A DNA stretch of 64,000 bases from Kribbella sp. CA-293567 (lineage in GTDB: Bacteria > Actinomycetota > Actinomycetes > Propionibacteriales > Kribbellaceae): the NCBI RefSeq assembly GCF_027627575.1, contig NZ_CP114065.1, forward strand, positions 2,108,001-2,172,000, written 5' to 3'. A model generated the notes under the pieces. That model was not told where the DNA came from. It did no database searches and saw only the letters and a list, made by a program, of their open reading frames with translations. Shown here one piece after another: positions 39,312 to 42,138 of the stretch (within the stretch, counting starts at the first letter, position 1; each line of letters begins with the position of its first letter). Made by a program: the position numbers and the translations under genes.

Positions 39312-40586
39312 CTAGCTGCAGCGGCGTACGGCGAGCAGTGCGTAGGTGCGAGCACAGTGGAGGACCTCGGCCAGTGACACGTGCTCGTCTACTGCGTGGG
39401 CGTAGCGGACGTCGCCCGGGCCGTACTGAAGTGTGGGGATGCCGGCAGCGGCGTACAGGCGCAGGTCGGAGCCGTACGGCCCGCCCTTGACCTCCGGGGC
39501 TCCGGAAGCTCCCGCAGCCGTTGCTGCCCGCAACGTGTCGTCCAGCAGCGGGTCGCCCTCCGGCAGTACGCCGGACGCGAAGATGCCGCCGGGCCAGGTC
39601 ACCTTGACCGGGTGGTCACGCAGCCAGTTGTCCGCCGCGCACGCGGTGGCAAGCGCCTGTTCGAAGGCGTGCCTCGCCTCGGCGACCGGCTCACCCAGCC
39701 GTACGCCGTACCGGCCTTCCGCGACGAGCAGGTCGGGGACGGTGCTGGCCCAGTCGCCCGCCTGGACCGTGCCGACGGAGAGCGGATTGGCCAGGTCCAG
39801 GTGCTTGAGCAGCGGGTGCGGATCGAGATTGCGCTCGGCCTCCAGCGTCATCAGCGCCTGCTGGATCACGGCGAACTTCTCGATCGCGCTGACCCCACGG
39901 GTTCGCGTCGAGCCGTGGGTGGCGAGACCCGGCACCTCCAGCCGGAAGGTGAGTGAGCCGGCGTTGGCCGGGATGACGCCGCCGGAGGTGGGTTCGGCGA
40001 TCAGGCAGGCCTCGCCGGTGTGACCGCGCTTCAGGGTGCCGAACGCACCGAGCCCGCCGTCCTCTTCGCCGACCACGGTGTGCACCGCGAGCGGCTTCCG
40101 CAGCGTGACGCCGCTCGCTGTGATCGCGGCGACGGCTCCGATGATCGCCGCCAGTCCACCTTTCATGTCGCAGGTGCCGCGGCCCCACATGACGCCGTCG
40201 CTCACCCGCGCAGCGAACGGATCGCCGTCCGGCCACTGGGCCAGGTCGCCGACCGGTACGACGTCCACGTGACCGTTGAAGACGAGTCCCGGCGTACCGC
40301 CGCCTGAGGTCACTCCGACACAGCCCCAGGCGTCCGCTCGATCGACCTCCCAGCCGGGGAAGTCCGGGTCGCCGGTGAGCGCCGGCAGGTCGAACTGCCA
40401 GTGGTCGACCTCCAGGCCGGCTTCGCGAAGCCGCTCCGCGACCCAGCCCTGGATCTCGCTCTCCTCGGCCGTCCCGTCGACACTCGGGATCTGCACCAGC
40501 TCTCGGAGATCAGCCACGATCCGTGCGTCGTCCACGGCTGCCAGCACGCCCCGCTCGACCTCACTCAGCATGCCGCCATCATCCAT
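39312..40586 (-). CDS. M20-family metallopeptidase/deacylase (ArgE/DapE type)
   Basis: A 424-residue M20 enzyme. Metal-site blocks in order: VFNGHVDVVPVGD, WGRGTCDMKGGLAAI (bridging Asp), TVVGEEDGGLG (catalytic and metal Glu), ACLIAEPTSG, and YAHAVDEHVSLAEV (final His). The dimerisation domain contains the usual AGSLTFRLEVPGLATHGSTR. It hydrolyses an N-acyl or peptide bond of an amino acid derivative in the cytoplasm; ArgE- and DapE-like members cannot be told apart here. Start is ATG 40586 or ATG 40571; neither has a clear ribosome site. Confidence 0.9.
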   Translation of the reverse strand: MDDGGMLSEVERGVLAAVDDARIVADLRELVQIPSVDGTAEESEIQGWVAERLREAGLEVDHWQFDLPALTGDPDFPGWEVDRADAWGCVGVTSGGGTPGLVFNGHVDVVPVGDLAQWPDGDPFAARVSDGVMWGRGTCDMKGGLAAIIGAVAAITASGVTLRKPLAVHTVVGEEDGGLGAFGTLKRGHTGEACLIAEPTSGGVIPANAGSLTFRLEVPGLATHGSTRTRGVSAIEKFAVIQQALMTLEAERNLDPHPLLKHLDLANPLSVGTVQAGDWASTVPDLLVAEGRYGVRLGEPVAEARHAFEQALATACAADNWLRDHPVKVTWPGGIFASGVLPEGDPLLDDTLRAATAAGASGAPEVKGGPYGSDLRLYAAAGIPTLQYGPGDVRYAHAVDEHVSLAEVLHCARTYALLAVRRCS

Positions 40587-40622
40587 CAAGCGGCCGCCGA
40601 GTGAGGCGAGCGGTCGGTCACC

Positions 40623-41912
40623 TCAGGGCGTCAGGCGGTGCAGGTCGCGCGGGAAGAGCGTGACCTCGCGAACGTTCTCCGCTCCCGTCAGCCGGGCGAC
40701 GAAGCGTTCGAGCCCGATCGCGAACCCACCGTGCGGGGGCATCCCGTGCTTGAACGCCTGCAGATACGACTTGTACTCCGCTGCGTCGGCCGACTCGCCG
40801 CGTGCCGCGAGCGCCGCCACGTAGTCGCTGTAGCGGTGCAGGCGCTGGCCGCCGGTGACCAGCTCGACGCCCTTGAAAAGAAGGTCGAACGAGTTGGACC
40901 AGCGCGGGTCCGACGGCTGCGGGTGGGTGTAGAACGGCCGCTTCACCATCGGGTAGCCCTCGATCGCGACGAAGTCACTGCCGTGTTCCCGCAGCGCCCA
41001 CTCGCCCAGCGCGCGCTCGTCGGCCGGCGCGAGGTCGGGCTCGTCGGGGCCGGCCCCGGCCAGTTTCAGCGCCTCGCTGAAGTGCAGGACGGGAACCTCG
41101 GTCGGGATCTCCGGCAACGCGACGCCGAGCCGCTCCAGCGCAGTACCGGCTCGCTCGCCGACTGTGCGCAGCATGTCGGACAGGACGGTTCGCAGTACGG
41201 CGAGGACGTCGCGGTGGTCGCGAATGAAGCCGAGCTCGGCGTCGAGCGAGACGTATTCGGCGAGGTGCCGGACCGTGTCGTGCGGCTCGGCGCGGAAGAC
41301 CGGGCCGACCTCGTAGACGCGTTCGAAGACGCCGACCATCGTCTGCTTGTAGAACTGCGGCGACTGGGCCAGGTACGCCGGGCCGCCGAAGTAGTCCAGG
41401 GCGAAGACATTGGCGCCCGACTCTGTTGCCGTACCGACGATCTTCGGCGTCTGGATCTCCGTGAATCCCTGCCGGTCCAGTGAGCTGCGGTAGCCGTGCA
41501 GCGCGGCTGCGGCGACCTCCCAGCCCGCCCGGACAGCCGGGTGCCGCAGGGCGACCGGAGCGTTGTCCAGTACTACGGGCAGCCCGGCCCCGACCGACGG
41601 CCGCCACAGCTCGATCGGTGGCGTCTGCGCCGGCTCGGTCAGCGGCTCGATGGTGGGGTCGACGATCTCGGCCCCACCCGGCGCCTGCGGGTTGGCGGCG
41701 ACCGTGCCGGTCACCTGGACGACGGTCTCCTCGCCGAGTTCGTCCAGCTGGGCCTGGGTTTCAGGCGTCTTGACGACGATCTGGCTCAGGCCGGAGCGGT
41801 CCCGTAGTACCAGGAAACTGACGGCCGCCAGCCGTCGTCTTCGATGGATCCAGCCGGCCACCGTGACGGTCTGGCCTACTGCTGAGGGGATCTCGTGGTT
41901 GAGAATGCGCAT
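40623..41912 (-). CDS. aspS: Aspartyl-tRNA synthetase, archaeal/short type
   Basis: A 429-residue class II synthetase with the N-terminal OB-fold anticodon domain (VTVAGWIHRRRRLAAVSFLV) and catalytic motifs: motif 2 in PVFRAEPHDTVRHLAEY and motif 3 in GGFAIGLERFVARL. It is much shorter than the ~590-residue bacterial AspRS because the bacterial insertion domain is absent, so it is the archaeal-type enzyme, often non-discriminating (able to charge tRNA-Asn). The organism probably also has a long bacterial enzyme elsewhere. ATG 41912 is preceded by a T-box leader with a sequestered GGAGGTGA ribosome site. Confidence 0.93.
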   Translation of the reverse strand: MRILNHEIPSAVGQTVTVAGWIHRRRRLAAVSFLVLRDRSGLSQIVVKTPETQAQLDELGEETVVQVTGTVAANPQAPGGAEIVDPTIEPLTEPAQTPPIELWRPSVGAGLPVVLDNAPVALRHPAVRAGWEVAAAALHGYRSSLDRQGFTEIQTPKIVGTATESGANVFALDYFGGPAYLAQSPQFYKQTMVGVFERVYEVGPVFRAEPHDTVRHLAEYVSLDAELGFIRDHRDVLAVLRTVLSDMLRTVGERAGTALERLGVALPEIPTEVPVLHFSEALKLAGAGPDEPDLAPADERALGEWALREHGSDFVAIEGYPMVKRPFYTHPQPSDPRWSNSFDLLFKGVELVTGGQRLHRYSDYVAALAARGESADAAEYKSYLQAFKHGMPPHGGFAIGLERFVARLTGAENVREVTLFPRDLHRLTP

Positions 41913-42138
41913 CGCTGTTGTTCACCTCCGTTGGTCATCTCGAACCCCGGAGGTGTGGGCGAAGGGGATCTCGCGGTGCCACCACACCTTCACCGGACCC
42001 CGCATGGTGGTGTCCGGCCTCTTGCGTCGCATTCGCTCAGGAGTGTCTTCACGACCGCCTCGCGCATCGCCTTCGCAGCTACCGGCGACTCTCTCGTGCG
42101 CAAGGGTGAGGGCGCTACTTGGTTCCGTCACCACGAAC
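41913..42138 (-). ncRNA. Asp-specific T-box riboswitch leader (translational)
   Basis: On the minus strand the leader shows all T-box landmarks in order. AGAGAG (42094-42089) precedes a stem TCGCC (42088-42084) / GGCGA (42071-42067) capped by the GGTAGCTGCGAA loop. The specifier context is GAA-GAC-A followed by CTCCTGAGC; specifier GAC (42047-42045) is an Asp codon. The T-box core is TGGTGGCACCGCG (41984-41972); UGGC (41981-41978) has C opposite the G73 discriminator of tRNA-Asp. GGTGTGG (41988-41982) can pair with CCACACC (41958-41952), the antisequestrator. The overlapping CACCTCCG (41955-41948) can pair instead with CGGAGGTG (41930-41923), hiding the aspS ribosome site. There is no terminator T-run. 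Confidence 0.9.

Follow-up and report, generated by a model that had tools for sequence, protein, structure and literature searches.

The leader of a 429-aa aspartyl-tRNA synthetase gene (aspS2) of Kribbella sp. CA-293567, located at 42138-41912 of the window (the whole 64,000 nt stretch of DNA that was analysed), is very probably an aspartate-specific T-box riboswitch, which would act on translation initiation and control a second aspartyl-tRNA synthetase (AspRS). The leader lies on the minus strand, which was left unnamed in the original prediction, and ends at the ATG start codon of aspS2 (41912). By every defining anatomical test made it is a T-box, and its parts, its specificity, two mutually exclusive helices and their conservation can all be read from the sequence and from comparison with related leaders. 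The motifs quoted in the original prediction (AGAGAG, the loop, GAA-GAC-A, the T-box with its C, and both helices) were each found in place on the minus strand, to which all coordinates of the leader given here refer.

Stem I is of full length (42138-42034) and includes a K-turn, a specifier loop, an AGAGAG bulge in the head (42094-42089) and a terminal loop (GGTAGCTGCGAA in DNA, GGUAGCUGCGAA in RNA, 42083-42072), as delineated by alignment to the Rfam T-box model RF00230 and by conservation in 38 Kribbella leaders, all of which keep the terminal loop. The K-turn at its foot reads CGU-GGU-GA-CGGA / UCCU-GA-GCG, with the GA/GA positions invariant in the 38 leaders, and the head with its AG bulge and terminal loop, which is the elbow-contact part, is present, the elbow contact itself being predicted. 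The RF00230 alignment places the specifier GAC (context GAA-GAC-A) at 42047-42045, and this codon pairs with the anticodon GUC of tRNA-Asp. Stem III with its flanking purines (AAGAGGCCGGAC...GUCCGGUG) was located by sequence and by the same alignment at 42024-41991, and is followed by the antisequestrator (41988-41952), which is composed of helix A1 (GGUGUGG/CCACACC, or GGTGTGG/CCACACC in DNA, 41988-41982/41958-41952), the T-box bulge UGGCACC and helix A2 (GCGA/UCGC). The T-box sequence TGGTGGCACCGCG occupies 41984-41972, with its variable base C at 41978, and the UGGC at 41981-41978 is complementary to the G73-CCA of uncharged tRNA-Asp, the gene of which ends in G-CCA. The Shine-Dalgarno sequence (GGAGGUG, 41929-41923) lies 10 nt before the ATG and can be covered by the sequestrator CACCUCCG/CGGAGGUG (41955-41923; DNA strands CACCTCCG/CGGAGGTG, 41955-41948/41930-41923), as indicated by sequence, conservation, cross-clade comparison and forced-state folding. 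About 10 nt upstream of Stem I, a -10-like TAnnCT element is conserved in Kribbella, its TA and CT in nearly all of the 38 leaders; the copy in the window (TACCCT, 42150-42145) would place the transcription start at about 42139, the foot of Stem I, and no sigma-70 consensus pair was found by a promoter scan of the leader region. The presence of a conserved element adjoining Stem I argues against a transcription start downstream of 42040, a case raised in the original prediction.

The aspS2 gene (40623-41912, minus strand) encodes an archaeal-type AspRS, which is predicted from its NCBIfam matches and its solved relative to be non-discriminating. The protein matched NF003483 with 535 bits (cut-off 353) and TIGR00458 with 359.6 bits, just under the cut-off of 368.4, both of these being NCBIfam aspartate--tRNA(Asn) ligase models, and its best solved relative is the T. 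thermophilus AspRS2 (1n9w). Residues H23 and P78 align with the His and Pro of the latter, are invariant in 12 relatives, and correspond to a His and a Pro in the anticodon-binding domain that characterise non-discriminating AspRS; the enzyme probably charges both tRNA-Asp and tRNA-Asn. An ordinary bacterial AspRS is also present in the host genome, away from aspS2, which together with the NF003483 match bears out the earlier description of an archaeal-type second enzyme, and no AsnRS scored above cut-off in the host genome. A gene for an M20-family peptidase/deacylase (39312-40589, minus strand) starts 33 nt downstream of aspS2, and is possibly co-transcribed with it.

The bacterial AspRS was found in 52/53 aspS2 genomes of the same order that were examined, and in 43 of the 49 named ones. 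It was present in 91/93 genomes with a T-box-led aspS2 versus 4/9 without a T-box (Fisher p 3e-5); the 102 genomes thus divide into 91 with T-box and bacterial AspRS, two with the T-box only, four with the bacterial AspRS only and five with neither, the same four classes counting 75, 0, 0 and 2 in the Actinomycetota subset (Fisher p 3e-4), where both tests ignore relatedness and several informative cases are incomplete MAGs. The only one of these 53 genomes of the order in which no bacterial AspRS was found, a Nocardioides-like genome (G283, leader L048), is also the only one in which aspS2 has no T-box. This distribution is consistent with a back-up enzyme that is kept off by its T-box and that loses the T-box on becoming the sole AspRS. 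The exceptions are two MAGs with a T-box and no bacterial AspRS, four genomes with both enzymes and no T-box, and six genomes where the T-box is on the bacterial AspRS, which show that control of the principal AspRS by the element is possible as well. From anatomy and comparison we infer that aspS2 is made on demand, and its role is likely to be that of an inducible back-up in case of failure of the housekeeping AspRS or of aspartate shortage.

A rival for this role, which leaves the mechanism as it is, would have aspS2 serve mainly as a resistance copy, induced when an AspRS inhibitor rather than aspartate shortage leaves tRNA-Asp uncharged. Such an inhibitor is known in microcin C, which blocks AspRS and causes uncharged tRNA-Asp to accumulate (PMC7136475), and an extra, resistant SerRS accompanies albomycin production, being encoded in the albomycin clusters (PMC12525621). 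The finding of a related T-box before a serS gene points the same way, as does the origin of aspS2 from another branch than the housekeeping enzyme, with a tree that departs from taxonomy. However, the neighbours of aspS2 in the window are the M20 peptidase, a LuxR regulator and a sigma factor, and aspS2 was found in 38 Kribbella genomes, a spread that looks more like that of a core gene in this genus than like that of a sporadic one. We consider a main role in resistance possible, though on the unlikely side. The findings point to inducible second synthetases, which have a bearing on the tolerance of drugs directed against aminoacyl-tRNA synthetases.

For the switch itself, two mutually exclusive helices had been proposed, and both were seen: CCACACC, which forms the 3' side of A1, continues into the sequestrator strand CACCUCCG, which pairs with the Shine-Dalgarno sequence, and as CACC is shared between them the two helices exclude each other. 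When forced, the two states of the leader in the window were near-equal in energy, at -26.5 and -26.9 kcal/mol. Folding without constraint gave a sequestered structure (-33.4 kcal/mol), as is expected of a switch that is off without tRNA; minimum-free-energy folding did not distinguish the leader (z -0.85). The seven core pairs of the sequestrator never vary in Kribbella, and the evidence for it within this genus is thus one of conservation only, without covariation. Across clades, A1 is altered on both sides yet remains paired (GGUGUGG/CCACACC, AGUGCGG/CCGCACU, GGCGCGG/CCGCGCC and GGAGUGG/CCGCUCC), as is the sequestrator (ACCUCC/GGAGGU, ACUCCC/GGGAGU and CACUCC/GGAGUG).

We infer from this arrangement that tRNA binds the leader and that translation rises as a result. 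With tRNA-Asp charged, the leader would rest in the sequestrator fold, with CACCUCCG on the Shine-Dalgarno strand CGGAGGUG, and aspS2 would be poorly translated. Once tRNA-Asp is uncharged, its anticodon would pair with the GAC in Stem I and its elbow would pack against the head of that stem. Pairing of its free GCCA end with UGGC would stabilise the antisequestrator GGUGUGG/CCACACC, drawing CACC from the sequestrator and leaving the ribosome site free. The AspRS2 so made would then charge tRNA-Asp, and probably also tRNA-Asn. An output at the level of transcription, via attenuation or Rho instead of ribosome access, is improbable for this leader. It has a precedent in Chloroflexota, where some aspS2 leaders end in terminator-like hairpins with T runs (L214, with L213, L220 and L230 by sequence), but no intrinsic terminator-like site was found between 42350 and 41850, and in most of the Actinobacterial leaders that were read the Shine-Dalgarno sequence is covered by the alternative helix, which stays paired although its sequence changes. 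Both observations support the translational output that had been predicted.

The specificity for aspartate, likewise part of the original prediction, was upheld by both contacts with the tRNA, since the host tRNA-Asp, with anticodon GUC and an encoded G73-CCA end, fits the specifier GAC and UGGC alike, and both are kept in 38/38 Kribbella leaders. The variable N of the UGGN bulge is a C, the complement of G73 in the tRNA named by the specifier, and GAC is also the trinucleotide that the leader has in common with the ultrashort leaders of related genomes (see below). Two other frames of the specifier loop were considered and rejected: AAG (Lys), as its tRNA has discriminator A, which does not fit the T-box C, and AGA (Arg, G73), which does fit the C and is absent from the ultrashort leaders, whose loop reads CxUGACRxx.

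Co-variation of specifier and T-box base with the regulated gene, suggested as a check in the original prediction, was seen in several comparisons. A further 20 T-boxes fetched from the same order precede ileS and combine the specifier AUC with UGGU, with many of their hosts also having the aspS2 element. A covariance model (R1) built from Nocardioides-type aspS2 leaders only matched 79 of 294 genomes of the order, 75 of them genomes with aspS2, and in the remaining four the element stands in front of a bacterial-type aspS, encoding an enzyme of different architecture; in a class-wide sample it matched 17/395 genomes, the gene that follows being of the aspS2 type in 14, bacterial aspS in two and serS in one. 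This Nocardioides-type Asp T-box precedes bacterial-type aspS, not aspS2, in six genomes from two families (L235, L236, L237, L238, L242 and L245). The serS leader (L250 in G908, at ~1560 of the reverse strand) is a full-size T-box with the same body, specifier UCC (Ser) and UGGC kept, located before a serine--tRNA ligase gene that scores above the serS cut-off, and bacterial tRNA-Ser has discriminator G73. Taken together, the ileS (AUC/U), serS (UCC/C) and bacterial aspS leaders indicate that RNA and gene change together. The serS gene behind L250 may encode a second, inhibitor-resistant SerRS. About half of the Kribbella genomes contain a second T-box, which precedes ileS where checked (G002, G027, G037, G055, G070 and G088; L131-L136). 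Five Chloroflexota-type aspS2 leaders (L213, L214, L216, L220 and L230) have U in place of C as T-box base, so that pairing with G73 would have to be of the G-U kind, unless the specifier is to be read differently.

Sensing of tRNA-Asn is a very improbable alternative to sensing of tRNA-Asp, according to which the non-discriminating enzyme may serve the transamidation route to Asn-tRNA. It would be in line with the place of AspRS2 in the aspartate--tRNA(Asn) ligase models, the lack of an AsnRS above cut-off in the host and the G73 that the host tRNA-Asn likewise has, and the B. cereus lysK T-box is known to respond to Lys and Asn tRNAs (PMC2916919). The specifier is GAC, however, none of the aspS2 leaders read has an AAC specifier, and the same element also precedes bacterial-type aspS.

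The RF00230 hit by which the original prediction was to be checked does exist: a permissive scan gave a match of 56.1 bits (E 2.4e-11) that spans positions 1-219 of the model. In a genome-wide scan (E 4.3e-11) it was the sole hit at E <= 0.001 in 7.6 Mb, and the host genome has no second T-box at this threshold. The Rfam gathering score for RF00230 is 93 bits, above the 56.1 of the leader, and a default Rfam scan reported nothing. As none of the T-boxes in 294 genomes of the same order, ileS included, passed the cut-off of 93, failure of the leader to do so says little. All 38 aligned Kribbella leaders keep the specifier, T-box and sequestrator, and GAAGACAC and UGGUGGCACCGCGA are unchanged in 38/38 while much of the remainder is variable. 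That the leader is a decayed T-box without present function, as its score below the Rfam cut-off and the missing Stem II might suggest, is very improbable, since the functional positions are kept in the 38 Kribbella leaders amid a variable remainder, and the absence of the T-box in the Nocardioides-like G283, where the bacterial AspRS seems to be lost, demonstrates that loss happens and is visible.

The whole-model RF00230 match supports the full-size Stem I of the original prediction, to which we add that Stem II and IIA/B are missing, since in Kribbella the complete Stem I is separated from Stem III by a linker of ~12 nt. These are optional and not defining parts of a T-box, and the ultrashort or intermediate Stem I that is typical, without being defining, of translational Actinobacterial T-boxes is not found in Kribbella either. 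Translational T-boxes were described from ileS (PMC1262725), and mostly have a shortened Stem I, with a few long ones (PMC7583486). T-boxes of this translational kind are present before ileS in the sister genomes. The ileS T-boxes of M. tuberculosis and N. farcinica resemble the Kribbella leader in the output by Shine-Dalgarno sequestration, the T-box bulge and the layout of the antisequestrator, whereas they have an ultrashort or intermediate Stem I, a Stem II with S-turn, IIA/B, specifier AUC and T-box U; in the Kribbella leader Stem I is full, Stem II is lacking, the specifier is GAC and the T-box base is C. In C. acetobutylicum a T-box-controlled aspS operon has dual Asn/Glu specificity. 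As with aspS2, one of several AspRS genes in that species, namely one of three aspS copies, is under T-box control (PMC2494555); there the T-box is of the Firmicutes and transcriptional. The full Stem I, short linker to Stem III and lack of Stem II are shared with the Firmicutes glyQS leader (PMC7583486), which is transcriptional and Gly-specific, while the Kribbella leader is apparently translational and Asp-specific. The B. cereus lysK T-box also controls a second, archaeal-type synthetase beside a housekeeping one, and differs in its Lys/Asn response and transcriptional output (PMC2916919). In the open-access literature no T-box on aspS or serS was found reported for Actinobacteria, Kribbella or Nocardioides; TBDB has searched reference genomes of Actinobacteria with a class II model of its own (PMC7778990), and may already list some of these loci.

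The original prediction described an Asp T-box with full-size stem I on a second-type AspRS as unusual, a point that we change: the element accompanies aspS2 through Actinomycetota and Chloroflexota and is a widespread companion of this gene, not a rarity of the host genome. The combination of a long Stem I, no Stem II, translational output and Asp specificity is a variant one, and the surprising part is formed by the ultrashort sister leaders. Full Stem I, Stem II with S-turn and IIA/B are all present in Micromonospora and in the f4 family of the order, and in Nonomuraea and some Streptomycetaceae Stem I is likewise full but the Stem II regions are shorter. Stem I is ultrashort in Terrabacter, Humibacillus and Flexivirga, where it consists of a K-turn and a hairpin whose loop contains GAC, and a short linker leads on to Stem III. 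Counted from Stem I through A1, these elements measure 107-109 nt; they have no Stem II, an architecture based on a handful of sequences. Kineosporia has an IIA/B-like segment in addition. A further type, the Nocardioides type, is that of Nocardioides, Oerskovia, Microbacterium and Promicromonospora; here the ultrashort Stem I sits on a lower helix of its own, an IIA/B-like pseudoknot is present, one more hairpin is optional, and no K-turn can be recognised. The structure proposed for this type is well supported by comparison, with 92.4% of cells paired and 15/33 pairs changed on both sides, compared to 7.7 in shuffles; such two-sided changes affect 7/8 pairs of the lower helix and 3/4 of the specifier hairpin. 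In eight loci with ultrashort forms Rfam gave nothing at E <= 1. The default search of Rfam misses the Actinobacterial Asp and Ser T-boxes described here. A leader from a Micromonosporaceae MAG (L192, upstream of 3001) apparently has an intermediate Stem I with GAC in a side loop and a short capping hairpin, plus Stem II, and is a possible step between long and ultrashort Stem I.

These sister leaders may represent a tRNA-Asp sensor with ultrashort Stem I and without Stem II (~108 nt in Terrabacter, Humibacillus and Flexivirga), which in the Nocardioides type also lacks a recognisable K-turn, with Stem I having been shortened more than once in one orthologous leader while the specificity was unchanged, a proposal to which we give about an even chance. 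Descriptions of translational T-boxes come almost exclusively from ileS, with Stem II as what enables an ultrashort Stem I to function. In published work Stem II is held to be essential when Stem I is ultrashort, and for ileS T-boxes the need for Stem II and IIA/B is supported (PMC10651847); an ultrashort sensor without Stem II would, if true, overturn this view, and the Nocardioides-type leaders would bear on the question of whether a K-turn is needed for a T-box to function. For a single gene, and with a single codon read, the leader occurs in at least four architectures, namely complete, lacking Stem II, ultrashort and lacking Stem II, and ultrashort with an IIA/B-like pseudoknot but no visible K-turn; these provide natural constructs for asking what a T-box needs and how small a tRNA sensor can be.

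Mapped onto a tree built from 99 AspRS2 proteins, the ultrashort form of Stem I requires six changes of state, at least three of which are forced by well-supported branches. Chloroflexota and other deep branches have a long Stem I, which makes shortening the likelier direction, a direction that is read from an unrooted tree. The tree does not follow taxonomy, with Micrococcales sequences placed among those of Nocardioides and having the same leader type, which suggests that aspS2 gene and leader moved together. In one Kribbella genome (G064, leader L078), the aspS2 match is in two pieces with a break, perhaps a frameshift, while the T-box is intact.
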